Assembly (NCBI RefSeq): GCF_012275375.1
Contig: NZ_JAAZQJ010000002.1
Location: 248,001 to 312,000 of the forward strand
Direction: 5' to 3'
DNA length: 64,000 nucleotides
Origin: Dyella sp. SG609
GTDB lineage: Bacteria > Pseudomonadota > Gammaproteobacteria > Xanthomonadales > Rhodanobacteraceae
Position 1 is the first letter of the stretch, and every line of letters starts with the position of its first letter. Below are positions 13,385 to 46,312 of the stretch, one piece after another. Made by a program: the position numbers and the translations under genes. The notes below the pieces were generated by a model that saw nothing but the letters and a program-made list of their open reading frames with translations, made no database searches and was not told the origin of the DNA.

Positions 13385-13389
13385 CCACC

Positions 13390-20081: not shown

Positions 20082-20125
20082 GGGGAATTCCTTGAATAAT
20101 GGCCTTCGCTACGCAACCGCCGGAC

Positions 20126-20716: not shown

Positions 20717-20761
20717 GTCGGTCTCCTCTTTACGTGCGTCGCATGGACGCCGGGGCTGCGG

Positions 20762-21895: not shown

Positions 21896-21914
21896 GCGTA
21901 CCTCGTGCTCGGCG

Positions 21915-27700: not shown

Positions 27701-28464
27701 GTCGCTCCGCTGTTGATCGCGTCCAGCAGCGACCAGGTGAGCAACAGCCAGACCAGCGACGACAGCACCAGGTAGATCGCCGCGCCGTAGGCCGCGGCGC
27801 GCAGCCACGGCGCCAGCGCGATGCGCGTGTTGTCGCGGTCGGACACCACCGTGTAGTCATAGGCCTGCGGAAACGCGCGCGCCTCCACGCTGCCGAGCTT
27901 GCGGCCGCTGGCCAGCGGATACAGCCGCGCGCGGTACTGGCGCAGTTTCTTCAAGCCTTCGGCGCCGCGGTACATGCCCTGGAAGCCCAGCTGCATGGCC
28001 AGCAGCAGCACGGCGGCCAGGTCCGCATCCAGCGTGCTGCGCTCGCCCGCGCCCATCAGGTCGTCGACCAGGTCGAAGAAGCGCCGGCCGGCCACGCGCG
28101 AGCGTTCCACCGTGTATTCGAGCAGGTGCTCGGGCCAGTGTTCGGCGCCGGCCCAGTGCAGTTCGAGAATGAAGATCTCGTCGGCCAGCGCCACCATCGC
28201 GTAGCGCGCGCGGCGGTAGGCCTCCAGCTCCGCGCTGGTGGCCGCGGCCTGCACGTCGCGCGACTGGCGGTCCAGCACGGCCAGCAGGCGGTGCGCGATG
28301 CGCTCCACGCTCTGGTGCGCCTCCAGCTCCCCGTGCGGGTTGTCCGGCTGCAGCAGCCGCGTCAGCTCGCCCTTCTGGATGGCGAGCTTGACCTGCGCGA
28401 CTTCCTCGTAGAACGCCGCGAAGCGTCCCAGCAGGAAGTTGGAGGAGGCAACCGTTCCGTTCAT
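27697..28464 (-). CDS. tssL: Type VI secretion membrane-complex protein TssL (DotU), short form
   Basis: 255 residues. ATG 28464 overlaps the tssK stop by 4 nt. Cytoplasmic DotU domain with ARYAMVALADEIFILELHWA, FFDLVDDLMGAG and LLLAMQLGFQGMYRG, followed by a single C-terminal membrane anchor (AAIYLVLSSLVWLLLTWSLL). There is no OmpA/peptidoglycan-binding extension, so wall anchoring must come from another protein or be absent. TssL pairs with TssM in the inner membrane. Confidence 0.95.
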   Translation of the reverse strand: MNGTVASSNFLLGRFAAFYEEVAQVKLAIQKGELTRLLQPDNPHGELEAHQSVERIAHRLLAVLDRQSRDVQAAATSAELEAYRRARYAMVALADEIFILELHWAGAEHWPEHLLEYTVERSRVAGRRFFDLVDDLMGAGERSTLDADLAAVLLLAMQLGFQGMYRGAEGLKKLRQYRARLYPLASGRKLGSVEARAFPQAYDYTVVSDRDNTRIALAPWLRAAAYGAAIYLVLSSLVWLLLTWSLLDAINSGAT

Positions 28465-29889: not shown

Positions 29890-30354
29890 TCATGGCTGTT
29901 CGGTCACGGCGAGCTGGGTGGCCTGCAGCCACACCACCGCCCGGCGGAATTTGGTGAGATCGGCGCGCGCCTGCCCGTCGGCCGACAGATAGTTGGCAAA
30001 GGCATACACGGCCACCGCCTTGCCCGCGCGCTTGGGCAAAGGCACCGGATCGATCACCTGCGCAGGCGGGATCTCCAGATGCACCGCATCGACCGAGATG
30101 CCCAGCCCGTTGATCAGCGCGGTTTTCTGCGCGAACCACTCCGGCCCGGTCTTGGGCAGCATGGCTTCGTTCTTCAGGTCGTACAGGAACACCAGGTCCA
30201 GCTGCACCGCCGAATTGAGATTGGCGCCCGGCGGCGCGGCCACGCGCACGCTGGACAGCGTGGTGGTCGGCGTGCGGCCGAGCAGCTTGTTGACCGAGCT
30301 GCATCCGGCCGGCGCGGCCAGCAGCAGCAACAGCAATAGAAGTCGCGCGCGCAT
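29890..30354 (-). CDS. tssJ: Type VI secretion outer-membrane lipoprotein TssJ
   Basis: 154 residues. A lipoprotein signal (MRARLLLLLLLLAAPAGC) ends in the lipobox APAGC with acylated Cys18. The mature domain is a TssJ-type transthyretin-like sandwich (LNSAVQLDLVFLYDLKNEAM, VDAVHLEIPPAQVIDP). The start overlaps the PAAR-gene stop by one base (TGATG). It anchors the TssLM complex to the outer membrane. Confidence 0.93.
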   Translation of the reverse strand: MRARLLLLLLLLAAPAGCSSVNKLLGRTPTTTLSSVRVAAPPGANLNSAVQLDLVFLYDLKNEAMLPKTGPEWFAQKTALINGLGISVDAVHLEIPPAQVIDPVPLPKRAGKAVAVYAFANYLSADGQARADLTKFRRAVVWLQATQLAVTEQP

Positions 30355-30752
30355 CAGCTCAGCACCAGCACGGTGACCTGGGCGGGCGTCAGCGACACTC
30401 CCACCATGTTCGGCAGCAGGCCGTTCTGGCCCACCAGGCCCAGCATGTGCGTGCAGGGAATGCCGCCCATGAACACCTTGAAGCTGCCCAGGATCGAGCG
30501 GAACGGCCCCATGAACAGATGCGAGACCACGCCGCCTTCCGCACCCGGCTGGTCGCCGTTGCTCAGCGCGCCCACGGTGACCAGGTTTTCCGCCAGGCCG
30601 CCGCCGACGATCACCTCGAACTGCGCGGGGATGTCCGCGAACGACAAGGCGATATTCGGAAACGGCATCGGCGTGGGCACGCCCAGCACGGGCACGAAGC
30701 ACACGTCCGGGAAGGCCAGGTTGAGCACGCCGAGATTGGTGTTGACGAACAT
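30354..30752 (-). CDS. PAAR-like spike-tip protein (DUF4150)
   Basis: 132 residues from ATG 30752 (MFVNTNLGVLNLAFPDVCFV). The DUF4150 signature is visible: NTN..G.NLAFPDVC.VP, PMPFPNIA, and FMGGIPCTHMLGLVGQNG. These proteins replace the classical PAAR cone at the tip of VgrG and recruit cargo. There is no C-terminal toxin extension, so the protein is a carrier. One-base overlap with tssJ, and it follows the DUF3540 gene by 4 nt. Confidence 0.88.
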   Translation of the reverse strand: MFVNTNLGVLNLAFPDVCFVPVLGVPTPMPFPNIALSFADIPAQFEVIVGGGLAENLVTVGALSNGDQPGAEGGVVSHLFMGPFRSILGSFKVFMGGIPCTHMLGLVGQNGLLPNMVGVSLTPAQVTVLVLS

Positions 30753-30756
30753 GGGC

Positions 30757-31308
30757 TTATCCCAGGCTGATACGCTCGGCATCGATCTTGGCGTCCTGCC
30801 GCGCGGTGATCATGGCCTGCTCGCCATGCAGCCGCAGGAACTGCCGCGCGTCGAGCAGGAACTGTTCGACCTGGCCGACATAGGTGCGCGCGGTCTGCAC
30901 CAGCGACTCCGCGGCGCTGGCGAACAGCTGCCGCCCGCTGAGCGCGAGCGCGCCCTGCACCGCCGTCACTTCCACGCCTTCGCCGGCGCGCAGCGCGATG
31001 TTGCGCGTGGCGGCGATATCGACCTCGGCCTGGCGGATCGACACGGCGTCGGCGCCCGGCACCGCCAGCGTGGCGCGGCCGCCTTCGGCGCGCGCCAGCA
31101 CGTGCAGCACAAAGCATTCGCCGTCGGCGGTGGCGACCAGCAGCACGCGGTCGCCCGCCTGCGGCGTGACCAGGCAGGACACCGCCTGGCGCGCGCAGCG
31201 GCCGTCGTCCAGGCGCCAGCCGTCGCGGCCGGCGGCATCGCGGATGGTGGCTTCGAACCAGGCGGGCGCGGCCGCTTGAACGGGTTTGGCTTGGCGGGCG
31301 GCGAACAT
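30757..31308 (-). CDS. DUF3540 protein of the T6SS spike cluster
   Basis: 183 residues from ATG 31308 (MFAARQAKPVQAAAPAWFEA). Pattern: CLVTPQAGDRVLLVATADGE, then short beta repeats (VDIAATRNIALRAGEGVEV) and a C-terminal helix. This is the DUF3540 family, always seen beside DUF2169, pentapeptide and DUF4150 genes in T6SS or contractile clusters. The beta repeats suggest a needle or spike-adapter piece; precise role not established. One-base overlap with the upstream pentapeptide gene. Confidence 0.82.
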   Translation of the reverse strand: MFAARQAKPVQAAAPAWFEATIRDAAGRDGWRLDDGRCARQAVSCLVTPQAGDRVLLVATADGECFVLHVLARAEGGRATLAVPGADAVSIRQAEVDIAATRNIALRAGEGVEVTAVQGALALSGRQLFASAAESLVQTARTYVGQVEQFLLDARQFLRLHGEQAMITARQDAKIDAERISLG

Positions 31309-32387
31309 CAGGCGGTCTCCAGGGCAAGGGCGCGGGCCTCGGCGGCGAGGCGGGAGGACGAGGTGCCGCGCAGGCGCTGGGTCTGCGCCGCGTGCAGGTC
31401 GGCTTGAACAAAGCGGGTGTTGTGGAAGCTGGCGTGGTCCAGCCGCGCGTGGCGGAAACCGACGCGTCCGCCGCTGGCATGGTCGAAGCGCGCATAGCTC
31501 AGCGTGGCGTGGCCGAAGTCCACCCCGGTCAGCCGTGCGTGGTCCCACACGCTGCCGGTGCCGCGCGCTTCCACCAGCGACACTTGCTGCAACTCGGCGG
31601 ACTGGAACAGCGCGCCTTCGCAGGACAGGCCGGCCGCATCCACCTCGCTCCAGCTGGAGTCGAGCAGCAATGCGTTGTCGAGTTTCGCTGCGCGCAGGCT
31701 GGCCTTGGCGAAGACGGCCTTGCGCAGATTGGCCTCGCGCAGGTCGGCGCCGTCCAGCCGCGCGCCGGTGAAGTCGGCGCCTTCCAGCAGGCAGCGCTGC
31801 AGCACCAGACCGCGCAGGTCCATGCCGCCGAAAAGCCCGCCTTGCAGCACCGCCGCCTGCGCGACCAGGCCGGTGACGTCGATCACGCGGAAGTCCGCGC
31901 CGGGCAGCACCGCCTGCGCCAGCGTCGCATGCGCAAGCACCAGGCCGGCAACGTCGCATTGGGTGGCGACGGTGCGATGCAGGAGCGCATGCGCGAAGCT
32001 GGCCAGGCGCAGATCCGTCTGGGTGAAGGCCGACAGCGCCACTTCCGCCTTCGTCCACGACGACGCCGACAAGTCGGCCAGCGCAAACGAACACTGCTGC
32101 ACATTCGCCCCGCCCCAGCGCGAAGCGCCCAGCTTGCAGCGCGTAAAGCTGCAGCTTTCCAGGGTCGCGCCGCTGAAGTCCGCCTCGCGCAGATCGCAGT
32201 CGATAAAGTTCACGTGCTGCAAGCGCGCGCCATGCAGATCGGCGCCGCGCCAGCTCACCTGGTTGAACAGCAGCGATTCGATCGCGCGGCCGCTGCTATC
32301 GAGCACGCCCAGGTCGACGCCGTTCACCGGACGCCCCAGGCGCTGCAGGTGGGCGATATCGTCCCAGGAGATCGCCGCCGCGCTCAT
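31308..32387 (-). CDS. Pentapeptide-repeat protein of the T6SS spike cluster
   Basis: 359 residues from ATG 32387. Most of the chain is A(D/N)LxX pentapeptide repeats (ADLHGARLQHVNFIDCDLRE, ADFTGARLDGADLREANLRK), predicting a right-handed quadrilateral beta-helix. No enzyme motif. It overlaps both neighbours (4 nt with the DUF2169 gene, 1 nt with DUF3540), so stoichiometric co-production is likely. In this conserved block it probably acts as an adaptor or chaperone for spike-loaded cargo. Confidence 0.87.
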   Translation of the reverse strand: MSAAAISWDDIAHLQRLGRPVNGVDLGVLDSSGRAIESLLFNQVSWRGADLHGARLQHVNFIDCDLREADFSGATLESCSFTRCKLGASRWGGANVQQCSFALADLSASSWTKAEVALSAFTQTDLRLASFAHALLHRTVATQCDVAGLVLAHATLAQAVLPGADFRVIDVTGLVAQAAVLQGGLFGGMDLRGLVLQRCLLEGADFTGARLDGADLREANLRKAVFAKASLRAAKLDNALLLDSSWSEVDAAGLSCEGALFQSAELQQVSLVEARGTGSVWDHARLTGVDFGHATLSYARFDHASGGRVGFRHARLDHASFHNTRFVQADLHAAQTQRLRGTSSSRLAAEARALALETA

Positions 32388-35002
32388 GGCAGCCTCCGTC
32401 CCGGCTCCAGCCGCACGCCTTCCAGCCGCGCGTGGTCGAAGCGCGCCTCGGCGCATTCGGCCTGCACGAAGTTCGCTTCGCGCAGGTCCGCCTCGCGGAA
32501 GTCCGCGCGGCGGCACATGGCCTGGTAGAAGTCCGCCGCTTCCGCATGGCAGCCGGTGAGTTCGCCGCCCATGAACAGAGAGCGGTAGAACAAGGTGCGT
32601 TCCAGCACCGCATGCGGCAGGCGCGCGCCGCTGAAATCGCATTCGCGGAACTGCCCCTCGGCCAGGTTGGCATCGGCCAGGTTGGCGCCGCGCCAGCTGC
32701 TGTGGTCGGCGCGCACGCGCTGCAGGTCGGCGCGCGACCAGTCTGCGCCGCCGCCGCCCTGCACGCGGGCCAGGTCGGCGCCGGCCCAGTGGCTGTCGGT
32801 AAGCCGGCATTCCATCAGCACGCTGCGCGACAGGGCCGCCTCGCGCCAGTCGCTGCCGGCCAGGCTGGAACCCAGCGCCACCGTGCGCTGCCAGGCCGCA
32901 TGCGCCCAGCGGCTGCCGTCGGCCTTGGCGTGCAGCAGCACGCAGTCGGCCAGGGTGGCGTGTTCCAGGTTGGCGCCTTCCAGCACGATGTTCGGCGCGA
33001 TCCAGCGCTCGAAGCGCGCACCGGCCAGGTCCGCGCGGCTCCAGTCGGCATCGCCGGCCTGCGTGCCGGCGAAGCTGGCGCCGCGGAACACGGCGTCGTG
33101 CGCGCGGGTGCGGGCGAGGTTGGCGCCGTCGAAGCAGGCGGCGGCGCAGTTGGCCGCATCCATGGTGGCGCCGGTCAGCGCCACTTCGCTCAAGTCCGCG
33201 CCGTCGAGCTGGGCGCCGCGCAGATCGGAAGCCTCCAGCAGCGCGCCACGCAGATCCGCACCGGACAGCATGGCGCCGCGCAGGTCCGCGCCGGCCAGAT
33301 CGCAACCGTGCAGCGAGCCGCCTTCGCGCACGCGCAGCAGCAGCCATTGGCCGATCGCGGCCGCCACCGCCGGTTGCAGCGGCAGGCCCGGCACGCTCGG
33401 TTGCGGCGAGGCCAGGCGGCCCTTGCGCTGCAGTTCGTGGATCTGTTCCACCGCCACCGGCGGCACGCCGGCCAGCGCGCCGAACTCACCGAGCGCGCCC
33501 ATCGCGCCGCCCTGCCCGGCCGCGCGCGCCAGCGCTTCCTCGGTGGTGGCCGGCACCGCGGGCGGCAGCTCCGGCAACTGCGCCAGCTGCGCGGCGGCTT
33601 CGTCGCGCCGCGCCTGCGCCTGCTCCTTCGCTGCGCGGCCGATGCGTTCGACGGCGTCGAGCATCGGGCTGAGATCGAAATCGCCGCGGCGGATCGCGGC
33701 TTCGCCGGGCACCGGCAAGTCCACCGCCAGCGGCGCTGGCGCCGGCGGCGGCGCGGGCATGCCGGAAGACGCTTCGAATTCCGCGGCCAGGCCCGCTTCG
33801 CGCGCCGCGCGCACGGCGACGCGGCGCTGCTGTTCTTCCTGCACTTCCGTCTGCCGCGCGGCGCGCAGGGCGGCGTCGGGTTCCGGCGTCAGCTGCGCTT
33901 CGTTGAAGACGTGGCGCGCGGCGGTGTCGCGGTTGAGCCGCAGCGCCAGCACCTCGCCGTAATGCGACAGCGCACGCGGCGCATCGTCGGCATGTTCGTA
34001 GGCCACCATCAGCGCTTCCACGTCCAGCGCCAGGCTGTCCTCCACCTCGATCTCGCCGCGGTGGATGGTCACGCCCAGCTCCGCGTCGGGGAAGAACCAC
34101 ACCGTGTCGAACGACAGCGCCACCTCGTCCACCGCATCCGCCGGCTGGCCCGCGCGATGGGCAAACGCGCGCGGCCGGAACTCCGGCAGGCAGCCTTCGA
34201 TCACCGGCAGGCGCGGATGCATGCCTTCCAGGCGATACGTCTCGCCGCCGGTGAAGAAGCCTTCGATGCGCTGGTCCAGCGGCGCCGCGTTGAAGAATTC
34301 CGGATGCGTATCGTCGGCCAGCCCCGGATAGGCCTCGCTGCGCCAGCGCTTGCCGTAGCTGCCGATCCACTGCCGCCGCGGCGTCCAGCCCACGTCGAGC
34401 TGGCCGAAGCCGGCCGGCGCGTAACGCCGGCGGGGGCTCCGCACGGGCCGCTGCGGCTGTTCCACGTTCGGCATGTCGCCGTGGTTGCGGCCGAAGAATG
34501 CGGCGAGCGGATGGCGCGCGTAGCCGCGTCCTTCCGGGTTCGCCGGATGGCCCGCGCCGCCGTAGGCGCGGCTCCAGGTCAGCGGCATCTGAGTGAACGG
34601 CAGCGGCTCGGTCACCTGCAGCCAGGGCAGCATGCCGTACATCCACTGGCGGTCGCCGACCACGCGCAGGCGCTTGTCCACACCACCCGATTTCCCGCCG
34701 TTCGACATCGCGCTGCCCACCACCAGGCGCACCATCTGCTCGGTCACCGCCAGCCCGTTCGCCGCATGCGCGCTGCCGGCCAGCAGCACTTCGCCGCGGG
34801 TCTTGGGCATCAGCTCGTCCAGCGGACGGCCCGGCGGCAGCGCGGACATCACCTTGCGCCACTGCAGGTTGTCGCGCAGCAAGGCATCCGGCCGCCCGCC
34901 CAGCGCGAAGAAACCCAGCGTCGCCACCAGCAGGCGGTCGCGCCCCTGCCAGCGGTACGGGCGGTGCATCAGGCCGAGGGTCATCGGTTTGACGATCTTC
35001 AT
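32384..35002 (-). CDS. DUF2169 protein fused to a pentapeptide-repeat domain
   Basis: 872 residues; ATG 35002 with GAGG overlapping the vgrG stop. The N-terminal ~340 residues are DUF2169 (LTWSRAYGGAGHPANPEGRG, DVGWTPRRQWIGSYGKRW, FFNAAPLDQRIEGFFTGGE, FFPDAELGVTIHRGEIEVED). A Pro/Ala/Gln-rich hinge covers about 390-530, and the rest is pentapeptide repeat (CDLAGADLRGAMLSGADLRG). DUF2169 proteins accompany VgrG/PAAR genes and are thought to help load cargo onto the spike. Position directly behind vgrG fits that. Confidence 0.87.
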   Translation of the reverse strand: MKIVKPMTLGLMHRPYRWQGRDRLLVATLGFFALGGRPDALLRDNLQWRKVMSALPPGRPLDELMPKTRGEVLLAGSAHAANGLAVTEQMVRLVVGSAMSNGGKSGGVDKRLRVVGDRQWMYGMLPWLQVTEPLPFTQMPLTWSRAYGGAGHPANPEGRGYARHPLAAFFGRNHGDMPNVEQPQRPVRSPRRRYAPAGFGQLDVGWTPRRQWIGSYGKRWRSEAYPGLADDTHPEFFNAAPLDQRIEGFFTGGETYRLEGMHPRLPVIEGCLPEFRPRAFAHRAGQPADAVDEVALSFDTVWFFPDAELGVTIHRGEIEVEDSLALDVEALMVAYEHADDAPRALSHYGEVLALRLNRDTAARHVFNEAQLTPEPDAALRAARQTEVQEEQQRRVAVRAAREAGLAAEFEASSGMPAPPPAPAPLAVDLPVPGEAAIRRGDFDLSPMLDAVERIGRAAKEQAQARRDEAAAQLAQLPELPPAVPATTEEALARAAGQGGAMGALGEFGALAGVPPVAVEQIHELQRKGRLASPQPSVPGLPLQPAVAAAIGQWLLLRVREGGSLHGCDLAGADLRGAMLSGADLRGALLEASDLRGAQLDGADLSEVALTGATMDAANCAAACFDGANLARTRAHDAVFRGASFAGTQAGDADWSRADLAGARFERWIAPNIVLEGANLEHATLADCVLLHAKADGSRWAHAAWQRTVALGSSLAGSDWREAALSRSVLMECRLTDSHWAGADLARVQGGGGADWSRADLQRVRADHSSWRGANLADANLAEGQFRECDFSGARLPHAVLERTLFYRSLFMGGELTGCHAEAADFYQAMCRRADFREADLREANFVQAECAEARFDHARLEGVRLEPGRRLP

Positions 35003-35009
35003 GCGCGCC

Positions 35010-37592
35010 TCATACGTAGATATAGACCACCGGGATCGACACGCTCAGGCCGACGATTTCCATCGAGATGCGTGCGCCGGCGATGGTCACCGAGGTGCCC
35101 ACGCCGGTGATGTCCACCGAACTGGACGAACCGTGGATGCTCATGCGCGTCTCGCTGCCGGTGACGCCGACTTCGGTGCTGTCGCCGGTGACGTTGATGC
35201 CGGTACTGCTGCCGGTGACGTTCATGCGGGTGGTGCTGCCGGTCACGCCGATCTCGGTGCTGCTGCCGGTGACATTGATGCCGGTGCTGCTGCCGGTGAC
35301 GTTGATATTGGTGTTCGAACCGGTGACGCTGGTCTGGCTGGACGTACCGGTCACCGAGATCATGCTGCTGCTGCCGGTCGCCGAGACCTGCTCGGAGATG
35401 CCGGTGACATTGGTGCTGTCGCTGCTGGCGGTGATCGCGGTCTCGGTGCGCACGCCGGTGAGCGACACCTGGTCGGCCAGGCCGGTAAGCGACACCGCCG
35501 CGCTGCGCCCGGTGCTGGACATCGTCGTGGTCATGCCCATCGTCTCCACCCCGTTGTTGATGCCGGTGGTGGTGAGGTTGCTCTGCATCGCGGTGGTGGT
35601 GACGCCGTTGACGATGTTCTGCGTGGTGATGCGCGTGGAGGTGCCCTCCACCGTGTCTTCCGCATAGGTATCGCCGGTGACGGTGCTGTAGCTGGTGCTG
35701 TCGCCGATGGTGCTCTTGCTCCAGGTCACCGCCGCTTCCATGGTGCTGTAGGTGCTGCCATAGGATTCGCTGCGGCTGAGCAGGCCGCTGGCGCCGTTCT
35801 CCGAGGTGGAATAGCTGTAGCTGGCGCCCTGCGCATAGCTGGTGTCGCGGTACTGGCCGCTCTCGTAGGCGCCGTTGACGATGCTTACCGCGTGGTCGAG
35901 GTTGTAGGCCGAGTGCAGGCCGTAGCGGATGCTCTGCCCGTCGCCGTAGGTGGTGGAGTAGTTGCTGCCCACATGGGTGTTGGCGGTCCAGCCCGACGGG
36001 GTGACCACCAGGCTGCCGTTGGGCGCGATCAGCTGCTGCACTTCCGGCAGCTCCGACTCGTCGCTGGCGCGCGTGACCAGCACGGTGGCGCCGATCTCCG
36101 GCACTGTGTTCATGCTGGCCGACAGCTTCACCCACACCGGCCCGGTCGCCGCGCCGGGGCTGGAGAACTGCACGTACACGCCCTTGGCCATCAGGTTGGG
36201 CGGCGCGGCCTGGCTGTCGCGCAGGCGGCTGGTGGCCGGATCGAAATTGGCCGGCTCGTAATAGCGCCAATCGGTGGGGCCGCGCCCGGCCATGTCCACC
36301 ACCTTGGCCAGGATGCCGCCCTGCTGGGTGTCCTGCACCGAGAACGCGGTGAGCATGGCCGCCGCGTCGGTGGACTCGAACTGGTTGGTATAGCCGCCAT
36401 CGGCGGTGGCCTGATGGGTGACCTTGCTCAGCACGAAGGCCTTGTTCTCCAGCGACGGGCGCACCGGCGCGGGCGAGGTGCCTTCGGCCATGTCGCCGCG
36501 CATGGTGAACTGGGTGCCGACGCGGAAGCCCGCGCAGGTGCTGCTGCCGGTGAGCTGCCGGCCGGAGGCGGCCAGCGTCGACGCGGTGGTGCGCACGTAT
36601 TCGCGCACGGTGCCGCTGCTCATGCCGTACTGATAGGTGCGGTACTGGTTGAACGGCAGCTCGCCCGGATCCGCCGGCGTGAACGCGCCGAAGGTCTGGA
36701 AGGTGGGAATCGGATCCTCGTCCGGTGCGTTCTCCTGGTGCGCGAAGCGGCCGCTGACGCCGGTGCTGGTCAGCGACTGCTGGTAGCTGTACTGGAACAC
36801 CACGTCATCCTGCTGCATGCCCAGCTCGTCCAGCGCCGTATAGGTGTAGCGCAGCGGACGGTCGAACGCCTGCAGGTAGGCCGGACGGTTGGCGAACACC
36901 ACGGTATGCCCGTTGCCGGTGTGCTTGAAGTAGTAATAGATGTGCGCCTTGGACATGATCCGGCGCAGGAATTCGTAGTCGCTTTCGCCGGCCTGCAGCC
37001 AGTCCTGCACGCGGGCGATGGCGATATTGTCCTCGCCGGAAACGGCATCGAGCGAACAGTCGATGTAGTGCTTGCGCATCAGGTCCGCGATCACGTCGCG
37101 CACGCTCATCTGCGCATGCACTTCGTAGCGGTTGGTCAGGTTCAGCCGCCACAGCGCGGGCTTCATGCCGACGCGGTACACGCCCGGCTCGTCCATGGCG
37201 AAGGAGCCGACGATGCCGTTGTAGAAGCTCATCGACGGCGCCGAACCGCTGCGCAGCGCCTGCGCGAAACGCGCGGCGGCGTCCGGCGCCTGGCCTTCCA
37301 CCGGGCGGTTAAGCCCTACGGTGACGGGGCGGCCGATCAGCGCATCGAAGGTGAGCGGCGGATTGAGCTTCGGATCGGTATTGCCGCGCAGCTGCAGCTG
37401 GAAATCGAAGGGCTCGGACACCGATTCCTGGCCCTCGAACGAGAGCAGGCGGAAGGTCTCGTCGGCCAGCCAGCGGTTGCCCGGCAACCCGATGCCGCAA
37501 TGCAGGTACAGCAGCGGCGAGCTGGCCTGGCCCTGCTGGCCGATCGGCTGGATCGCGGTGCGGCCGGCGGTGTCGGTGGGCAGCGCACTCAT
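35010..37592 (-). CDS. vgrG: VgrG spike protein (TssI) with extended C-terminal beta-repeat
   Basis: 860 residues from ATG 37592, overlapping the tssG stop by 4 nt. Gp27-like part: FRLLSFEGQESVSEPFDFQL, AQMSVRDVIADLMRKHYIDC, ESDYEFLRRIMSKAHIYYYF. Gp5-like OB fold: PVWVKLSASMNTVPEIGATV. The C-terminal ~290 residues carry a long Ser/Thr/Gly repeat with a 9-residue period (NVTGSSTGI, NVTGSSTEI, GVTGSTTRM), a triple-stranded needle. No catalytic C-terminal domain, so cargo is carried non-covalently by the DUF2169/pentapeptide/PAAR set encoded next to it. Confidence 0.94.
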   Translation of the reverse strand: MSALPTDTAGRTAIQPIGQQGQASSPLLYLHCGIGLPGNRWLADETFRLLSFEGQESVSEPFDFQLQLRGNTDPKLNPPLTFDALIGRPVTVGLNRPVEGQAPDAAARFAQALRSGSAPSMSFYNGIVGSFAMDEPGVYRVGMKPALWRLNLTNRYEVHAQMSVRDVIADLMRKHYIDCSLDAVSGEDNIAIARVQDWLQAGESDYEFLRRIMSKAHIYYYFKHTGNGHTVVFANRPAYLQAFDRPLRYTYTALDELGMQQDDVVFQYSYQQSLTSTGVSGRFAHQENAPDEDPIPTFQTFGAFTPADPGELPFNQYRTYQYGMSSGTVREYVRTTASTLAASGRQLTGSSTCAGFRVGTQFTMRGDMAEGTSPAPVRPSLENKAFVLSKVTHQATADGGYTNQFESTDAAAMLTAFSVQDTQQGGILAKVVDMAGRGPTDWRYYEPANFDPATSRLRDSQAAPPNLMAKGVYVQFSSPGAATGPVWVKLSASMNTVPEIGATVLVTRASDESELPEVQQLIAPNGSLVVTPSGWTANTHVGSNYSTTYGDGQSIRYGLHSAYNLDHAVSIVNGAYESGQYRDTSYAQGASYSYSTSENGASGLLSRSESYGSTYSTMEAAVTWSKSTIGDSTSYSTVTGDTYAEDTVEGTSTRITTQNIVNGVTTTAMQSNLTTTGINNGVETMGMTTTMSSTGRSAAVSLTGLADQVSLTGVRTETAITASSDSTNVTGISEQVSATGSSSMISVTGTSSQTSVTGSNTNINVTGSSTGINVTGSSTEIGVTGSTTRMNVTGSSTGINVTGDSTEVGVTGSETRMSIHGSSSSVDITGVGTSVTIAGARISMEIVGLSVSIPVVYIYV
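35080..35480 (-). repeat. 27-bp in-frame repeats coding the VgrG needle
   Basis: About a dozen degenerate 27-bp units encode consecutive nonapeptides of the form xVTGSSTxI. Period and phase are constant through the coding frame. Confidence 0.75.
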
Positions 37593-38713
37593 GCGGCCTC
37601 CTGCACGTCGTCGGCGCGGATGGTGAAGGTCACTTCGCGCTTCGCTTCCGGACGGCCGCTGACCCACGCGGTCTGGCCCAGGCGCAGGCCGTGGCCGCTG
37701 CCGAAACCGGCGAGGCGGCGCGGCTTGCCCATCCAGGAGGCGGGGATATCGGCTTCGTCCACCTCGATGGTGACCACCGCATCGACGTGGCGGTCGAACA
37801 GGTAATGCACCATCGCCGCCAGCCCGCGATAGCCGTTGCCGAACTGCGCGTCGTGCGCGCCGCCCGGCAGGTGTGCGCGATCCGGCAGCAGCAGGCACAG
37901 GCGCGCATACGGCACCGGGCCGATGCGCAGGCCTATAGCCGCATGGTTTACCCATACGCGCCGGCCCAGCGGCGCGCCGTCGCCCAGCACGCGCCGGCCG
38001 AGCAAGGTGCGGTCGCGCGCTTCGATGTCGCGCCAGGCGCCGACCAGCGCCTGCACCTGCACCGGCGCCTGCAGATACACGCCCAGCACGATCTGCGCCT
38101 GCGCCGCGCTCTTGCGTCCGTTCGCCACCAGGCCGGCCAGGGCCAGCAGTGCGCGGCGCGGCACCGGCACGCGGCGCGCGAGGATCGCCGCGCCCTCGCC
38201 TTCGAAGGCCGACAGGCCCATCAGCGCGCCGGCCGCGTCGGCCTGGCGCGTGTCTTCCGGCCGCACCGCGTCGAAGGCCGGCACGCTGGCGGCCTTCAGT
38301 TCGTAGCGCAGCGTGCTGAGCCGGTGATTGAAGATGTCCAGGAACTGCGCCATCGCCGGATCGCGCTCGGCCAGGCGCTGGCGCGCCCAGTCGGCGAAGC
38401 TGTCCGGCATCGGCCCCAGCACGCCGGACAAGGCGAAATTGGCCACGAACAGTTCCAGCCGCGGATCGTCCAGCGCCATGCTGCGCTCTTCGCGCAGGCG
38501 GCCCTTGGATATCTCGCTGCCGGGAAACACCGGCGACATCTCGCCGCGGAAGCGCAGGCGCGGCGACACGTAGCGCGCGCCGTCGCGGCGCGCAGGCGTA
38601 CCGCGGCGCGGCCACGACTGCAGCCGCACCCACTGGAAGAAATCGAAGCTGGCCGGCCGCCGCAGCAGCCGGTCGGCTAGAGGCTCACCTGTGCGCCAGT
38701 CAGGGGTGGCCAT
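37589..38713 (-). CDS. tssG: Type VI secretion baseplate protein TssG
   Basis: 374 residues from ATG 38713 (MATPDWRTGEPLADRLLRRP). Family marks: FDFFQWVRLQSWPRR, RFRGEMSPVFPGSEI, FVANFALSGVLGPMP, FLDIFNHRLSTLRYEL. TssG bridges TssF and TssK in the baseplate wedge. The start lies inside the 3' end of tssF (37-nt overlap) and the stop overlaps vgrG by 4 nt. Confidence 0.93.
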   Translation of the reverse strand: MATPDWRTGEPLADRLLRRPASFDFFQWVRLQSWPRRGTPARRDGARYVSPRLRFRGEMSPVFPGSEISKGRLREERSMALDDPRLELFVANFALSGVLGPMPDSFADWARQRLAERDPAMAQFLDIFNHRLSTLRYELKAASVPAFDAVRPEDTRQADAAGALMGLSAFEGEGAAILARRVPVPRRALLALAGLVANGRKSAAQAQIVLGVYLQAPVQVQALVGAWRDIEARDRTLLGRRVLGDGAPLGRRVWVNHAAIGLRIGPVPYARLCLLLPDRAHLPGGAHDAQFGNGYRGLAAMVHYLFDRHVDAVVTIEVDEADIPASWMGKPRRLAGFGSGHGLRLGQTAWVSGRPEAKREVTFTIRADDVQEAA

Positions 38714-40500
38714 GACTTGAGCTCTCCTCGGCGGTCGGAAGATTCGAGAATCAGTTCGATGACGGTATTGACCTCCGCATAGAGCGCCAGGAAGCGGTGC
38801 AGCACGCTGCCGAACAGCACCGCGCTGCCGCCTTCGAAATGGCCCAGGTCCACCTGCAGGCGCACCTGCAGGCAGTCGACGAAGCCGCGCCAGGCATCCC
38901 GGCGCGGCATGCGTTTCTGCACGCGGCGGGTGGACATGGCGCGCAGGCCGTCGATCTGCCGGTAGCCGGTGAGGCTCGCCGGCCCCACATGCAGGCGCAG
39001 CATGTTCTTCAGCACCGGCGGGCCGCGCTGGCCGTCCACCAGGGACAGATGATTGAGCGACAACTGCGACACCAGCGCCCACGGCCGCTCGCCCACCATC
39101 TGCGGCGGCTGGTTCGGCGTGGGCTTGCACGCCACCCGCAGCGAGGTCACGGGGCCGGCGCCTTCCAGGAACAAAGTGGTGCCCACCACCAGCTGCGACG
39201 GCAGGCGGCGGTTGGTGCACAGCGCGGTGCCGCCGATCATTTCCTCCGCCGGCAGCACGGTGTCGAATTCCGGATCCAGGAAGGACACGAAGGTTTCCGT
39301 GCCGTGCACCGCGCCGGTCTGGTTGACCTCGCGGCGGGTGGCATAGAAGTAGTCGATCTTGTCCAGCCGCTGCATCTCGTCCAGCGCGAAGTACGGCGCG
39401 ATCGGGCGCGGGCTGCGGTCCGGGCGGATCGAGACCAGCTCGTCCAGGCTGTATATCTCGCAGTAGCGGTGGTTCTGCTCGTCGGCGACCAGGCGGTATT
39501 CGTACTGGCGCTGGTCCAGCACGAAGGGTTCGATGCGCTGCGGGAACAGGTTGATCAGCGGCAGGCAGTTCAGCCGCAGCAGGTGCTTGTCGTAGTGGTG
39601 GTCCTTGGACGGCGGCACGTCGAGCAGGAACAGCAGCTCGAAGTCCTTGTCCACGCCGGTCAGGTCCATGCCGGCCACGTCGAAGAACAGGAATTTCTGC
39701 GGAAAGGCGAAGTATTCCTGCACCAGCCGGTAGCCCGGATGGGTCAGCGGGTTGGCGCCGAGCACCGCTTCCTTGTCGTCGAAGCCGCGCCACTGCAGCT
39801 GCGCGGCGTCCAGATAGCGCAGCTCGCCGGTGGCGCGCACGCGCACCGCCATGCGCACCAGGTGCATGGCCAGGCCGTCGTACAAGGCATAAGCCAGCTT
39901 GTGGTCGGCATGGATGCAGAAGCGCAGCGACTTCATCTGCATTGCATGCACCGGCTCCTTGCCGGTGCGCGTGATGGTGGCGCTGAGGATGGACGCTGTG
40001 CGCGTGTCGTTCGGGTCCAGCGGATAGGCGTTGGCCGCCATCGACTCCACGTGGGTAATCTTCAGCGGCCACAGCGGCGTGTCGTAGCACGTGCGGAAGC
40101 GGCAGCGCACCTGCTGGCCGAATTCGTTGGTGGCCAGCGCGTAGACGTAGCGGCCGCGCTCCAGGGTGGCGCCGTGCGCGAAGTTGGCGCCGTCCGGGCG
40201 CACTTCGATCTCGCCCACCAGCATCGACGGCAGCGGTGCCTCCAGATGCGGATACAGCAGGCCCATCAGCGCATTGGGCAGCACCGCCTGGTCGGTCTCC
40301 AGCTGGTAGCGCAGGCGCCCCGCCATCCAGGCGAAGGACTGCACCAGCATCTCCACGTGCGGGTCGCTGCTGCGCCCGCCGCTCAGCTCCAGCGCCTTGG
40401 CGATGGCCGGGAAGGACGCGCCGAAATCTGCCGCCTCGTCGCGCAGCGACGCCAGCTCCTGCTCGAACCACATTTTGAGGCGGGGCACATCGGCATTCAT
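38677..40500 (-). CDS. tssF: Type VI secretion baseplate protein TssF
   Basis: 607 residues from ATG 40500, which overlaps the tssE stop (ATGA). Hallmarks: WFEQELASLRDEAADFGASF, the DPHVEMLVQSFAWMAGRLRY segment, LMGLLYPHLEAPLPSM, and a C-terminal REVNQTGAVHGTETFVSFLD stretch. TssF is the main wedge protein around the VgrG hub (gp6-like). Confidence 0.95.
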   Translation of the reverse strand: MNADVPRLKMWFEQELASLRDEAADFGASFPAIAKALELSGGRSSDPHVEMLVQSFAWMAGRLRYQLETDQAVLPNALMGLLYPHLEAPLPSMLVGEIEVRPDGANFAHGATLERGRYVYALATNEFGQQVRCRFRTCYDTPLWPLKITHVESMAANAYPLDPNDTRTASILSATITRTGKEPVHAMQMKSLRFCIHADHKLAYALYDGLAMHLVRMAVRVRATGELRYLDAAQLQWRGFDDKEAVLGANPLTHPGYRLVQEYFAFPQKFLFFDVAGMDLTGVDKDFELLFLLDVPPSKDHHYDKHLLRLNCLPLINLFPQRIEPFVLDQRQYEYRLVADEQNHRYCEIYSLDELVSIRPDRSPRPIAPYFALDEMQRLDKIDYFYATRREVNQTGAVHGTETFVSFLDPEFDTVLPAEEMIGGTALCTNRRLPSQLVVGTTLFLEGAGPVTSLRVACKPTPNQPPQMVGERPWALVSQLSLNHLSLVDGQRGPPVLKNMLRLHVGPASLTGYRQIDGLRAMSTRRVQKRMPRRDAWRGFVDCLQVRLQVDLGHFEGGSAVLFGSVLHRFLALYAEVNTVIELILESSDRRGELKSWPPLTGAQVSL

Positions 40501-40889
40501 GCCAGGTCGTCCGGGCAAGGCAGTTCGAAACGGAACGTGCTGGGCTGGTCCTCCACCTGCACGGTGCCGTGCACGACCAGCGCATACGGCTTGAGCGCCC
40601 TGCCCGTCGCCAGCCATTCCAGCCGCGGCGCGCGCAGGCGCGGTTCGAAGCGCGCGATCGCTTCCAGCAAGCGCGCGCCAAAACGTTCGTGGTCAGGCAG
40701 GCCGATGCCGGTGTCGACGATCGGCGGCATGCCGAAGTCGCACACCCGCGCACCGCCCAGGCCTACGTAGGGCCGGCATTCGACGATGCGCTGGATCTGC
40801 GCGGCCACCGCGCCGATCGGATCGAACGGCGGCGCCTGTCCCATGTCCGGCTCGCTGCGATTGACCAGCCGCTCCATCAGGAATTGCAC
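40497..40889 (-). CDS. tssE: Type VI secretion baseplate protein TssE (gp25-like)
   Basis: 130 residues from GTG 40889 with GGAG 6 nt upstream (MQFLMERLVNRSEPDMG). The gp25-like lysozyme-related fold is indicated by RPYVGLGGARVCDFGMPPIV, ARLLEAIARFEPRLRAPRLE and VHGTVQVEDQPSTFRFEL. TssE starts sheath polymerisation on the baseplate. A repeat-filled 192-nt gap separates it from hcp, the only large gap inside the core operon. Confidence 0.9.
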   Translation of the reverse strand: MQFLMERLVNRSEPDMGQAPPFDPIGAVAAQIQRIVECRPYVGLGGARVCDFGMPPIVDTGIGLPDHERFGARLLEAIARFEPRLRAPRLEWLATGRALKPYALVVHGTVQVEDQPSTFRFELPCPDDLA

Positions 40890-41081: not shown

Positions 41082-41648
41082 TCAGGTAGTGAACTGCCCG
41101 ATCGGACGGTTGCGCGCGATACTCCAGCCCGCCGCCAGGTTGCCCGAGGTATTCATGTCCGCCTCCTGCACCGTGTACGTCCACAGCACTTCGGTGAAGT
41201 TGAGCTTGAACTGCTCGGTGGGCATGTCGTCCGGGTTGGACTGGAATTGGATCTCGCTGATGATCGCGTCGCGCAGCTCGATGGTGAGGATGTTGGCGGT
41301 CTTCTCGCCGGAGTTGCGCGCGATATAGATCTTGGTCGGGTTCTTCTCGCCCTTGCCCAGCGGCTGCGCGCGCAGGCAGTACTCGTAGAACTTCACCGAC
41401 GTCTTGTCCACGTACTTCACGCAGGTGAACTCGGTGATGATCGGGCGGCCCGAGGTACGCGCCGAATTGCTCACGTCGGTGGTGATCTGCTGTTTCATGC
41501 CCTGGTGCACCGAGACCAGCTCCAGGCACTGCCCGAGCTTGAGCACCTCGTCGCGCCATTGGTCGTCGATCAGGCTGCCGCCGCCTTTCCAGCCGTTGGG
41601 GCCGCCGAAGATCGACGAGTCGCCGGGTTGCAGAAGTATGAGGTCCAT
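41082..41648 (-). CDS. hcp: Hcp tail-tube protein (TssD)
   Basis: 188 residues; ATG 41648 with GGAG at a 6-nt spacer. Hcp family features: HQGMKQQITTDVSNSARTSG, PIITEFTCVKYVDKTSVKFY, TIELRDAIISEIQFQSNPDD and FTEVLWTYTVQ near the end. Hcp hexamers stack into the secreted inner tube and can carry small effectors. It follows the fused sheath gene by 49 nt; palindromic repeats follow it, which may raise its mRNA level relative to tssE. Confidence 0.95.
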   Translation of the reverse strand: MDLILLQPGDSSIFGGPNGWKGGGSLIDDQWRDEVLKLGQCLELVSVHQGMKQQITTDVSNSARTSGRPIITEFTCVKYVDKTSVKFYEYCLRAQPLGKGEKNPTKIYIARNSGEKTANILTIELRDAIISEIQFQSNPDDMPTEQFKLNFTEVLWTYTVQEADMNTSGNLAAGWSIARNRPIGQFTT

Positions 41649-41697: not shown

Positions 41698-44058
41698 TCA
41701 GCCCGCCGGCAGATCCGCCACCAGGCGAATCGACGTGGTGAGTTCTTCCAGCTGGAAATGCGGCTTGATGAACACGGTGGCCTTGTACGAGCCGGGCGAG
41801 CCGGGCACGTCGGTCACGGTTATCTGCGCCGCGCGCAGCGGATAGCTGGCCTTGACCTCCTGCGAGGCGTTGTCGTCCAGCAGCACGTACTGGGCGATCC
41901 AGCTGTTGAGGTAGGCCTCGATATTGCCGCGGGTGAGGAAGGCGCCGATCTTCTTGCGCATGATCACCTTGATGTAGTGCGCGAAGCGCGACGCGGCCAG
42001 GATGTACGGCAGCATGGCCGAGAGCTTGGCGTTGGCGTTCGCCTCGTCGCTGATGTACTGGCGCGGCAGGTTGGCGGTCTGGCCGCCGAAGAACGCAGCC
42101 TGGCCGGTGCCCTTGCAGTTGCACAGCGCGATGAAGCCCAGGTCGTTGAGTTCCTTCTCGCGGCGGTCGGTGATCGACACCTCGGTCGGGCAGATCATGT
42201 TCACCAGGTCCGCATCGTCGCGGTAGGTGAATACCGGCAGCCCGTCGACCAGGCCGCCGCCTTCCACGCCGCGGATCGCCGCCGTCCAGTGATACAGCGC
42301 GAACGAGTTGGTGATGCGCTCGGCCAGCGCATAGGCGGCATTGCCCCACAGGAAGGCGTTGTGGTCCGGGCCGTCGGGACCGGTCACGGTCTCCTCGTAG
42401 CGCAGGCCTTCGGCCGGGCGTGCGTCCTTGCCGTACGGCAGGCGCAGCAGGACGTGCGGCAGGGCCAGCGCCACGTAGCGCGAGTCCTCGCTGCCGCGGA
42501 ATTCCATCCACTGCGCCAGCTCGGGCGACTCGAACAGCTGGCTGAGATCGCGCGGCTTGGCCAGCTTGTCGAAGCCGTCCAGGCCGAACAGGCCGGGCGC
42601 CGCCGCGGCCAGGAACGGCGCGTGCGCGGACGCGGCGATCCTGGTCATATTGGTCAGCAGCGACATGCTGGCCGGCGAGTGGTCGAATTCGTAGCCGCCC
42701 AGCAGCAGGCTGTAGGGTGAGCCGCCGTAGGTGCCGAATTCGGCCTCGTAGATCATCTTGAAGATGCAGCTCTGGTCGAACTCGGCCGCCTTCTCCAGCT
42801 CCTTGCGCAGTTCGTCGGCGCTGGCGTTGAGCACGCGCAGCTTCAGCAGGCGGCCGCTCTCGGTGCGCGACACCACGTAGAACAGGCCGCGCCAGGTGGC
42901 TTCGAGATCCTTGAACGACTTGGTGTGCAGGATCACGTCGAGCTGCCCGCCGATCTGCACGTCGATGCCGCCGGCGCGCTCGTCCATCAGGCCGTTGGAA
43001 CCCAGCGCCACCTGGTGCAGATCGTTGTTGCCCAGCGGCACCAGGATCTCGTTGGTGAAGCGGCCGGCGAGGCGGCGTGCCTTGCTCAGCGGATCGATCG
43101 CAAGAAAGGCCTGCTGCCGCTCGGCCGCGACCGCCGCCTGGCGCTTGGCCAGCTCGGCGGCGGCATCGGCCTGCGCCTGCGCGGCAAGCGCGGCGGCGTC
43201 GGCATCGTTCTTGGTCTTGGTCGCATCGACCACCGCCTTGTTGGCGTCGGGCACGGCGTCGCCCTTGGCCTTGCTGGCGGCGTCCTGCGCCTTGGACAGC
43301 GCGGCGGCGGCATCGCTGGCGGCCTTCTGCGCGGCGGTGAGCGCGTCCGTGGTGGTCTTGATGTTCGCCGTGGCCGTGACCGATGCGGCGGCCGCCGCAT
43401 CCGAAGCCTGCTTGGCCGCAGCCGCGGCCTGCGCATTGCCGGCCATCTGCGCGGCCAGCAAGCCGACCAGCGCGCCGGGAATATCGGCGCCCGCCGCGTT
43501 CGGCGGCGGGTTGTCCTTGGCGTCGACGGCCGCGCCGGCCCAGTTGTCGGTGGCGTCGGCCGCGAAGCCCGCCTTCAAGGCGGTGATCGCCGCGCCGTCG
43601 GTAGTCGACCGGTCGAGCAAGGCGCCCAGCGCGTCGTTGCATTCGGCCATCGACTGCAGCGAGCGCAGGTCGGCGCGCGCGTCGTAGCGCTGGCGCAGGC
43701 TGGGCACCGCATTGACCACCGCCAGCGGCTCGAAGTCCGACAGCGCGCTGAAATGCAGCTCGCCGGCAAGCACCTTGCCCCCGCCCGCGATGGTGTCCGC
43801 GATGCCGTTGAGTTTGATCATGGGCGAGCTGTCGGCCAGGATCTTGTCGAACGACTCGGCGTCGATATCGCGCATGCGCCGATCCTTGAGCGCCGGCAGC
43901 TCACTGGCCGCCAGCTCGCCCGACAGATTGGCGAACATGCCCACGATAAAGGCCAGCTCCACTTTCTCGCTCGAGCCGCCCGTTTCGACGTCGTAGGTGA
44001 TGCGCACGCGCGGCGGCCGCACGCGCAGCAGCTTCTGTTGAATGCTCTCGACAGTCAT
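41698..44058 (-). CDS. tssBC: Fused contractile-sheath protein TssB-TssC
   Basis: One 786-residue ORF; ATG 44058 has GAGG at an 8-nt spacer. Residues 1-155 are a TssB/VipA domain (RVRITYDVETGGSSEKVELA, FIVGMFANLSGE, FSALSDFEPLAVVNAVPSLR). Residues ~155-205 are a bridge and ~205-315 an Ala/Lys/Asp-rich helical linker (AAQKAASDAAAALSKAQDAA). Residues ~320-786 are TssC/VipB (TKSFKDLEATWRGLFYVV, FDQSCIFKMIYEAEFGTYGG, EETVTGPDGPDHNAFLWGNA, LPYILAASRFAHYIKVIMRK). Normally these are separate subunits of about 165 and 490 residues. No stop or frameshift is present, so the fusion is genuine as given. The ClpV-recognised N-terminal helix of TssC is where the linker joins. Confidence 0.93.
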   Translation of the reverse strand: MTVESIQQKLLRVRPPRVRITYDVETGGSSEKVELAFIVGMFANLSGELAASELPALKDRRMRDIDAESFDKILADSSPMIKLNGIADTIAGGGKVLAGELHFSALSDFEPLAVVNAVPSLRQRYDARADLRSLQSMAECNDALGALLDRSTTDGAAITALKAGFAADATDNWAGAAVDAKDNPPPNAAGADIPGALVGLLAAQMAGNAQAAAAAKQASDAAAAASVTATANIKTTTDALTAAQKAASDAAAALSKAQDAASKAKGDAVPDANKAVVDATKTKNDADAAALAAQAQADAAAELAKRQAAVAAERQQAFLAIDPLSKARRLAGRFTNEILVPLGNNDLHQVALGSNGLMDERAGGIDVQIGGQLDVILHTKSFKDLEATWRGLFYVVSRTESGRLLKLRVLNASADELRKELEKAAEFDQSCIFKMIYEAEFGTYGGSPYSLLLGGYEFDHSPASMSLLTNMTRIAASAHAPFLAAAAPGLFGLDGFDKLAKPRDLSQLFESPELAQWMEFRGSEDSRYVALALPHVLLRLPYGKDARPAEGLRYEETVTGPDGPDHNAFLWGNAAYALAERITNSFALYHWTAAIRGVEGGGLVDGLPVFTYRDDADLVNMICPTEVSITDRREKELNDLGFIALCNCKGTGQAAFFGGQTANLPRQYISDEANANAKLSAMLPYILAASRFAHYIKVIMRKKIGAFLTRGNIEAYLNSWIAQYVLLDDNASQEVKASYPLRAAQITVTDVPGSPGSYKATVFIKPHFQLEELTTSIRLVADLPAG

Positions 44059-45125: not shown

Positions 45126-46118
45126 TCACTCGCCGGAATCTTGCTCCTGTCCGACCACGGAAGCGAGCCTGTACTTGCTCACCAGCTTGCTGAACGCACT
45201 GCGGTCCTGCCCGGCCATCCGCGCCGCCTGCGTGATATTGCCCCGCGCCCGCGCCATGGCCGAAGCCACGTAACTGCGCTCGAAATCGGCGATCGCCCGC
45301 GCCTTGGCCTGCTTGAAGGCGGCATCGTCGGCGGCCTTGGCCGGCGCCTCGGCCAGATCCTGCGGCGGGCCGCCCTGGATCAGCTGCCCCTCGCACATCA
45401 GGTATTCGCGCTGCACGAAGTGTTCCAGCTCGCGCACGTTGCCGGGCCAGCTGTAGCGCTGCAGCGAGGCAAGAAAGCCCGGATCGAAACTCTTGCGCGA
45501 AGTCTGCGCGCCATACTGGCGATTGAGCCGCGTAAGGAACGCTTCCGCCAGCTCCATCACGTCGCCGCCGCGTTCGCGCAGCGGCGGCATCACCAGCGGC
45601 ATCACCTTCAGGCGATACAGCAGGTCGCGGCGGAATTGCCGCGTCTTGACCATTTCATCGAGATTGGCATTGCTGGCCGCGATCAGGCGCACGTCGGTCG
45701 AGCGTGTCTGCGTGCCGCCGACGCGCCGGTAGGTGCCGTCCTGCAGGAAACGCAGCAGCGAGGCCTGCGCTTTCGGCGAGAGCGTGTCGATCTCGTCGAG
45801 AAACAGCGTGCCGCCCTCGGCTTCGCTGACCAGGCCGGGCGAGGCCTGGCGTGCATCGGTGAAAGCGCCGCGCTCGTGTCCGAACAGTTCGCTTTCCACC
45901 AGCGAATCGGCCAGCGCGCCGCAGTTGACGGCGATGAAAGGGCGGGACGCGCGCGCACTCAGGTAGTGCACCGCTCTTGCCCCCAGTTCCTTGCCCGTGC
46001 CGGTCTCTCCCCCGATCAGAACGGTCACGTCGAATTTCGCGATACGGCGTATCTGCGCAATGACGTGAGCGAACTGCGGCGAAGATCCAAGCAAGTTGGA
46101 CTCCGCGATATCGACCAT
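45126..46118 (-). CDS. Sigma-54-dependent transcriptional activator (AAA+ plus Fis-type HTH)
   Basis: 330 residues from ATG 46118 with AGGGGG upstream. Nearly the whole protein is the AAA+ domain: Walker A GETGTGK (37-43), L1 loop GAFTDA (84-89, canonical GAFTGA), Walker B GGTLFLDEID (102-111), and the WPGNVRELEHF segment. The C-terminal Fis-type HTH is GNITQAARMAGQDRSAFSKL. There is no receiver, GAF or PAS domain, so activity is probably set by abundance or by a partner. The neighbouring T6SS promoter of -24/-12 type is the obvious target. Confidence 0.93.
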   Translation of the reverse strand: MVDIAESNLLGSSPQFAHVIAQIRRIAKFDVTVLIGGETGTGKELGARAVHYLSARASRPFIAVNCGALADSLVESELFGHERGAFTDARQASPGLVSEAEGGTLFLDEIDTLSPKAQASLLRFLQDGTYRRVGGTQTRSTDVRLIAASNANLDEMVKTRQFRRDLLYRLKVMPLVMPPLRERGGDVMELAEAFLTRLNRQYGAQTSRKSFDPGFLASLQRYSWPGNVRELEHFVQREYLMCEGQLIQGGPPQDLAEAPAKAADDAAFKQAKARAIADFERSYVASAMARARGNITQAARMAGQDRSAFSKLVSKYRLASVVGQEQDSGE

Positions 46119-46312
46119 GACGCCCCCTGTACGGGGCATCGCGTCCTTTGCTCCATGCGACTCCCCGGACCGCGGATGTTGCCCCTCGCGGTGCGCGACC
46201 GCAATATGCATCGGCCAGGAAAAATTCGCGGATGCCGCGCGTCACGCTGGCGAAATGTCTTTTTCACGTGAAGACGCACAGGCAGATCGATGCGGCAGGG
46301 GGGCCGTCCATC

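Follow-up and report, generated by a model that had tools for sequence, protein, structure and literature searches.

Textbook type VI secretion systems (T6SSs) build their contractile sheath from two proteins, TssB and TssC, and recycle it with ClpV, whereas phage sheaths consist of one chain and are used once. We analysed a 64,000-nucleotide stretch of the genome of Dyella sp. SG609 (contig NZ_JAAZQJ010000002.1, positions 248,001 to 312,000; hereafter the window), in which a single gene, tssBC, encodes both sheath proteins as one polypeptide. Together with its relatives in other bacteria, this gene probably represents a T6SS lineage with a one-polypeptide sheath that operates without ClpV.

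The tssBC gene lies on the minus strand, where 786 codons from position 44058 to position 41698 form one continuous frame from ATG to stop, and the plus-strand reading of 41698..44058 is interrupted by an internal stop. The original prediction, made from the letters alone, had read an uninterrupted 786-codon TssB–linker–TssC frame without stating its strand, and the frame, Pfam and NCBIfam all bore this out. The profile search that it had proposed matched both families: TIGR03358 (TssB) scored 105 bits against a cut-off of 97, and TIGR03355 (TssC) scored 581 bits with a match that begins only at profile position 43 of 473. In Pfam, VipB covered residues 364–662 (E 9.1e-113) and VipB_2 residues 672–783 (E 3.3e-44). 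The parts of the gene are as follows.

41698..44058, minus strand: tssBC, single fused sheath gene, 786 amino acids (frame, Pfam and NCBIfam; orthologues aligned)
43573..44025, minus strand: TssB (VipA) domain, residues 12–162 (Pfam T6SS_VipA PF05591, E 9.3e-31)
43096..43443, minus strand: alanine-rich segment, residues 206–321, predicted antiparallel two-helix hairpin (AlphaFold2 block predicted local distance difference test score, pLDDT, 90–97; coding constraint; conserved length)
43030..43092, minus strand: residues 323–343, predicted helix positioned like the TssC helix next after the ClpV-docking one (predicted secondary structure and alignment; putative homology)
41710..42969, minus strand: TssC (VipB and VipB_2) domains, residues 364–783 (Pfam PF05943 and PF18945)

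The window genome (G000; genomes are numbered G and loci L below) has 5.13 Mb in 27 contigs and is 99.83% complete, and tssBC is both its sole TssB locus and its sole TssC locus. The nearest named relatives are Dyella marensis (93% identity) and Dyella sp. OK004 (90%). Seven aligned fused proteins served as the query for a scan of genome contigs, which yielded 231 relatives; of the best 80, which were retained, 45 were fused, 32 had separate genes and 3 were undecided, as judged by the open frame. Since the uninterrupted fused frame recurs in 45 of these 80 fetched loci, a missed stop or frameshift in the window assembly is ruled out as the explanation. This genome survey had also been suggested at the outset, and the fusion turned out to be not a peculiarity of the window genome but the mark of a widespread lineage. 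Fused genes were found in Dyella, Luteibacter, Rhodanobacter, Oleiagrimonas, Chitiniphilus, Chitinolyticbacter, Trinickia, Robbsia, Janthinobacterium, Undibacterium, Thalassomonas, Oceanobacter, Planctobacterium and a SAR324 metagenome-assembled genome (MAG). Within the window's family, 93 of 233 genomes have TssB and 14 have the fused form (11 of these loci were read directly, and the other three share frame lengths with named fused loci). In the phylum sample, TssB was present in 88 of 398 genomes and the fused form in 4, the window genome included. A long frame could not by itself be taken as a fusion, as L005 (G019) and L007 have long frames yet separate genes. Three genomes with a TssB match in a long frame (G439, G471, G255) were not counted as fused, and the region of G471, the sole one read among them, contained no TssB match to the window protein.

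A quick tree was built from 432 TssC-core columns and 92 rows, comprising 47 fused (45 of the best 80 loci, the window and L019), 42 unfused and 3 undecided rows, with seven rows on long branches. One clade (SH-like approximate likelihood ratio test, SH-aLRT, 99) united L048, which is truncated, with 43 fused rows, and spanned Rhodanobacteraceae, Betaproteobacteria, marine Gammaproteobacteria and the SAR324 MAG. The fused L058, L081, L088 and L100, from MAGs labelled Alphaproteobacteria or just Proteobacteria, were placed among unfused rows. A single clade of all fused rows was rejected by the approximately unbiased (AU) test on this quick tree (p-AU 5.7e-58), indicating at least two fusion events rather than a single origin. 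A second, diverged TssC in tandem beside the normal TssC was also seen in Azospirillum, Niveispirillum and other genomes (G108:C43, G109:C44, G127:C14, G095:C5, G124:C8 and others).

No gene of the window genome exceeded the cut-off of the ClpV model. The best match, at 851 bits (cut-off 885), is ClpB, which reaches 1463 bits with the ClpB model; ClpA came next. Among the core components of the window T6SS, TssH/ClpV alone is clearly lacking, judged from its genes. Among the 44 genomes behind the fused loci, ClpV was over the cut-off in 16, all 16 of which also carry an unfused TssC, and in none of the 26 whose only TssC is fused; the remaining two (G069 and G076) carry an unfused TssC, but none of their genes passed the ClpV cut-off. 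Of seven further genomes (G000, G005, G025, G617, G342, G137, G195), only G342 had ClpV, located ~7 kb from an unfused TssB and ~60 kb from the fused gene. Over all 51 genomes (44 plus seven, with genomes reached twice, such as G003 and G062, counted once), ClpV was found in 0 of 32 fused-only genomes and in 17 of 19 with fused and unfused sheaths, where unfused TssC was called by frame length (≤602 amino acids) with TssB not considered, and G617, G137 and G195 were classed as fused-only on TssB alone. The loci L048, L069 and L096 (no TssB on the contig) and L064 lay outside the ClpV searches.

In 29 of the 32 fused-only genomes the best match (a fragment in two of them) scored much better with the ClpB model than with the ClpV model, and three fused-only MAGs that are perhaps incomplete (G084, G089, G103) had no ClpB-scale match. 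G076, which is outside the 17, has a ClpV fragment at a contig end (624 bits as ClpV vs 370 as ClpB). Contigs extended at least 20 kb on both sides at 24 of the 44 fused loci. A ClpB/ClpV-like gene was present in the fetched flanks of 14 of 42 unfused loci vs 0 of 51 fused ones, the loci differing in length, and ClpV was found in 22 of 32 genomes of unfused relatives.

The region between the two domains also differs from that of two-protein sheaths. AlphaFold2 predicted helices at residues 206–263 (58 residues) and 266–321 (56 residues), in agreement with the originally proposed linker at ~205–315. Across 12 genes of the Rhodanobacteraceae group the linker is 180–184 amino acids long, and its ratio of nonsynonymous to synonymous substitution rates (dN/dS) was 0.22–0.56 in seven pairwise comparisons with the window gene, so that on sequence grounds the linker is coding sequence. 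Linker length and sequence vary between fused lineages: the span between the equivalents of residues 149 and 351 ranged from 43 to 357 amino acids in 46 of 47 fused rows (L071 was excluded, as it yielded a meaningless negative value). The long linker of the original prediction is present in the window and the Rhodanobacteraceae group; by these lengths it is local, not common to all fused sheaths. Some Betaproteobacteria (L038, L041, L059, L078) have 281–357 amino acids in this span, unlike the Dyella hairpin in sequence and perhaps independent expansions at the same site.

In the short-jointed fusions of marine Gammaproteobacteria, aligned against unfused TssC, the end of TssB is followed by ~15 residues and then by the TssC N-terminal helices, with the L-L-D-x-I-I stretch replaced (alignment without L038, L041, L044, L053, L059, L071, L078 and L081, and with 13 of the 42 unfused rows). 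The LLDxII pattern was found in 2 of 46 fused rows vs 24 of 42 unfused rows, and by this measure most fused proteins have lost the ClpV-docking motif. The LLDEII motif in the TssC N-terminal helix of Vibrio cholerae VipB binds ClpV, and Pseudomonas aeruginosa ClpV1 is reported to be independent of that helix (PMC4239648). In the P. aeruginosa sheath structure TssB1 136–172 and TssC1 1–37 are untraced, and the TssC1 helix adjoining the untraced end sits in the outer layer (PMC5807055). The joined ends being untraced and the adjoining helix outermost, fusion would require no alteration of the resolved core, and the joint would fall at the ClpV docking site. With V. cholerae as the reference, the joint does lie at the TssC end used by ClpV, as had been proposed. 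The accompanying suggestion that the fusion may hide or replace the ClpV signal held in part: the signal is not merely hidden, as the motif is mostly lost and ClpV itself was not found in fused-only genomes.

The AlphaFold2 model of the tssBC product aligned with the single-chain sheaths of phages, pyocins and extracellular contractile injection systems (eCISs) across both its TssB and its TssC part, spanning about residues 33–772; of the fused proteins, the structure alignments cover a part (40 rows in A2, 24 in A3). The two domains are predicted to fold as a T6SS sheath protomer. At E 0.001 no phage or eCIS sheath family matched in Pfam or NCBIfam, only T6SS families (PHROGs was not searched).

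We propose that the fused chain would polymerise around Hcp with one chain as one protomer, collinear with phage, pyocin and eCIS subunits, and that the sheath would contract as other T6SS sheaths do. The joint, a long helical hairpin in Rhodanobacteraceae, would lie on the outer surface, where two-protein sheaths present the TssC N-terminal helix to ClpV. With ClpV-driven unfolding gone, there would be no further need for separate TssB and TssC. Spent sheaths would be left or degraded, as in phage-like single use, or, on the Francisella model, processed by ClpB or another general unfoldase; either may apply. The fixed 1:1 TssB:TssC stoichiometry expected at the outset follows from the fusion, provided that the chain stays uncleaved. 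The idea of altered recycling gains weight from the lack of ClpV in the 32 fused-only genomes, while altered assembly or recycling as such is still something we infer. A broader scenario is offered only tentatively: a T6SS lineage may on at least two occasions have re-evolved a one-chain, phage-like sheath and dropped ClpV recycling, and once the unfoldase was lost, TssB and TssC would no longer have been obliged to stay separate. The freed surface site would then have become a platform, in Rhodanobacteraceae for a long helical spike with a new role unrelated to ClpV, such as bundling, stabilisation or turnover.

Several observations weigh against a one-chain, ClpV-free sheath or against a tie between fusion and ClpV loss. 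ClpV over the cut-off was missing from 10 of 32 genomes of unfused relatives, of which three had fragments only and several are small MAGs, suggesting that ClpV loss may precede fusion or be independent of it. Dyella monticola (G069/G596; L030, L108) has a fused and an unfused sheath and no ClpV over the cut-off. At most 16 candidates were scored per genome in the main ClpV search, and many genomes are MAGs of uncertain completeness. On the phylogeny only 2 independent fusion-vs-ClpV contrasts fell on supported branches, with which a sign test cannot reach significance. This pair test set ClpV to 0 for fused rows, no ClpV being linked to any fused locus, and left out the unfused L056, L057 and L075 (fragments) and L002–L011, as well as L064 and L019. 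The association between fusion-only sheaths and ClpV absence is complete in these sequence data but built on few events. The LLDxII pattern was devised after the sequences had been inspected, it does match two fused proteins (L077 and L078), and four of the unfused rows that it misses (L002, L003, L004, L007) do contain an LLD motif. As to the model, the structure aligner reports first and last aligned residues only, the C-terminal part is weak in places (block pLDDT 34–79 from residue 590 on), AlphaFold2 tends to over-predict long alanine-rich helices, and the prediction is of a single chain, not a multimer.

The same data bear on how else the fused gene might work. Recycling of the fused sheath could proceed in the usual way with another unfoldase taking hold of the linker, most likely housekeeping ClpB, which acts on the Francisella sheath; we regard this as possible though rather doubtful. 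Francisella gives a precedent, having no ClpV and requiring ClpB for sheath disassembly (PMC5481754), ClpB or its fragments occur in 29 of the 32 fused-only genomes, and the hairpin is predicted as exposed helices of conserved length in Rhodanobacteraceae. Set against this, the differing length and sequence of linkers among fused lineages reveal no common recognition element, G084, G089 and G103 have no ClpB-scale match, and the presence of a housekeeping gene such as ClpB says little. Post-translational cleavage, also contrary to a one-chain sheath, would leave an ordinary TssB and TssC pair as the working sheath. It is compatible with the sequence, and a variable linker would tolerate cutting; yet we noticed no cleavage signal (no search aimed at one was made), the window hairpin is predicted to be ordered, and the joint in L076 is short (~12 residues between predicted helices, block pLDDT 87–93; whole model 69.2). 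We consider cleavage unlikely.

More improbable still is an internal start that yields a separate TssC in addition to the fusion. In-frame ATG, GTG or TTG codons do exist near residues 340–358, and in 4 of 12 genes (L022, L023, L017, L028) a GTG at 350 is accompanied by four Shine-Dalgarno-like bases; but the combination is lacking in the other 8, the window gene included, and short four-base matches are expected by chance alone, so that we dropped an internal start as a family feature. An assembly or sequencing error, or a gene in decay, can be practically dismissed, given the 45 fused loci in other assemblies, purifying selection on both domains (dN/dS comparison within the Rhodanobacteraceae group) and the remaining T6SS genes in order beside tssBC.

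In Campylobacter, the T6SS has tssB and tssC as separate genes. ClpV has been reported as absent from this T6SS (PMC3428339), from Francisella, where ClpB is needed for sheath disassembly (PMC5481754), and from the Amoebophilus T6SS(iv) (PMC10433429, PMC6745524); none of these known ClpV-less systems is described with a fused sheath in the portions of the literature examined. The Francisella T6SS(ii) IglA/IglB sheath resembles the fused-only genomes in lacking ClpV but is a two-protein sheath disassembled by ClpB (PMC5481754). T6SS(iv) lacks the canonical membrane anchor, whereas the window cluster has TssL and TssM and does not fit the T6SS(iv) definition of having no TssJLM membrane complex. 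Canonical T6SS(i) TssB/TssC (VipA/VipB; 5n8n, 3j9g, 9n4v) share families, fold and kind of gene neighbourhood with the window sheath, which differs in being one polypeptide, not two; fused sheaths further differ in that the docking motif is mostly lost, and fused-only genomes in that no ClpV was found. Phage, R-type pyocin and eCIS (Afp, PVC) sheaths are single chains like tssBC, and the predicted model aligns with them through both parts; unlike them, tssBC belongs to a T6SS cluster that also encodes TssL and TssM, and it matches T6SS families only. Phages and R-pyocins do not recycle their sheaths (PMC5807055). Our searches of open-licence full texts yielded no description of a natural TssB–TssC fusion, and neither "fused" nor "fusion" occurs in the accessible text of a Xanthomonadales T6SS survey that covers Dyella (PMC6653060). 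Automatic databases would be expected to show both domains for the fused proteins.

A widespread one-chain, ClpV-less lineage would be a natural experiment on two questions: why the T6SS sheath is made of two proteins, and whether recycling depends on that division. Fused clusters may be misclassified in T6SS surveys whose criteria include ClpV, or TssB and TssC as separate genes. In harmless soil bacteria, a one-chain sheath would suit cryo-electron microscopy.

Beside tssBC the cluster encodes TssA, Hcp, TssF, TssG, VgrG, a PAAR-like protein, TssK, TssL and TssM, as follows.

45126..46211, minus strand: sigma-54 activator, upstream of tssBC (PF00158)
41082..41648, minus strand: hcp (tssD) (PF05638, E 1e-18)
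40497..40889, minus strand: tssE-like, weak gp25 domain (PF04965, E 3.5e-4, below cut-off; position fits)
38677..40617, minus strand: tssF, start probably over-called, overlaps tssE (PF05947, E 5e-163)
37589..38713, minus strand: tssG, 4-base overlap with vgrG (PF06996, E 7e-54)
35010..37592, minus strand: vgrG (tssI) (PF05954, E 2.7e-38)
32384..35002, minus strand: DUF2169 and pentapeptide-repeat protein (PF09937, PF00805)
31308..32393, minus strand: second pentapeptide-repeat protein, approximate start chosen by hand (PF00805, PF13599)
30354..30782, minus strand: PAAR-like tip protein (PF13665, E 6.7e-26)
29890..30360, minus strand: small lipoprotein-like open reading frame (ORF) in the expected TssJ place (lipobox-like motif, by eye)
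28461..29867, minus strand: tssK (PF05936, E 6e-43)
27697..28755, minus strand: tssL (DotU), start probably over-called (PF09850)
23684..27808, minus strand: tssM, IcmF N-terminal domain (PF14331)
22522..23667, minus strand: tssA (PF06812)

The ORF in the same place as the tssE-like one in a related locus (L018:8152-8679) matched TIGR03357 at E 2.2e-9, also below the cut-off. A TssG–VgrG fusion suggested by a 1207-amino-acid ORF proved to be a spurious longer frame, as tssG lies in another frame with the 4-base overlap. The TssJ family PF12790 had no match anywhere in the window genome, and the lipoprotein-like ORF between PAAR and tssK may be a diverged TssJ missed by the Pfam model; L014 has a similar ORF. 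By tblastn of neighbours, a similar sigma-54 activator gene was found beside 24 of 47 fused rows vs 1 of 42 unfused rows, with loci that differ in length and ten unfused loci that span just 4.4 kb.

Downstream of tssA, the minus strand of 18984-22496 encodes an M91-type metallopeptidase-like protein and two proteins of ~195 amino acids with DNA/RNA endonuclease (NS_2) matches, one above and one below the Pfam cut-off, separated by a 377-amino-acid protein without a Pfam match; the region resembles an array of effectors that may have been duplicated in part. Near the T6SS cluster, the plus strand of 11726-16311 carries two adjoining Rhs-repeat frames of 552 and 976 amino acids. On the minus strand, 53342-63988 holds a frame of 3548 amino acids; a DUF3739 filamentous-haemagglutinin domain lies close to the end of this frame.
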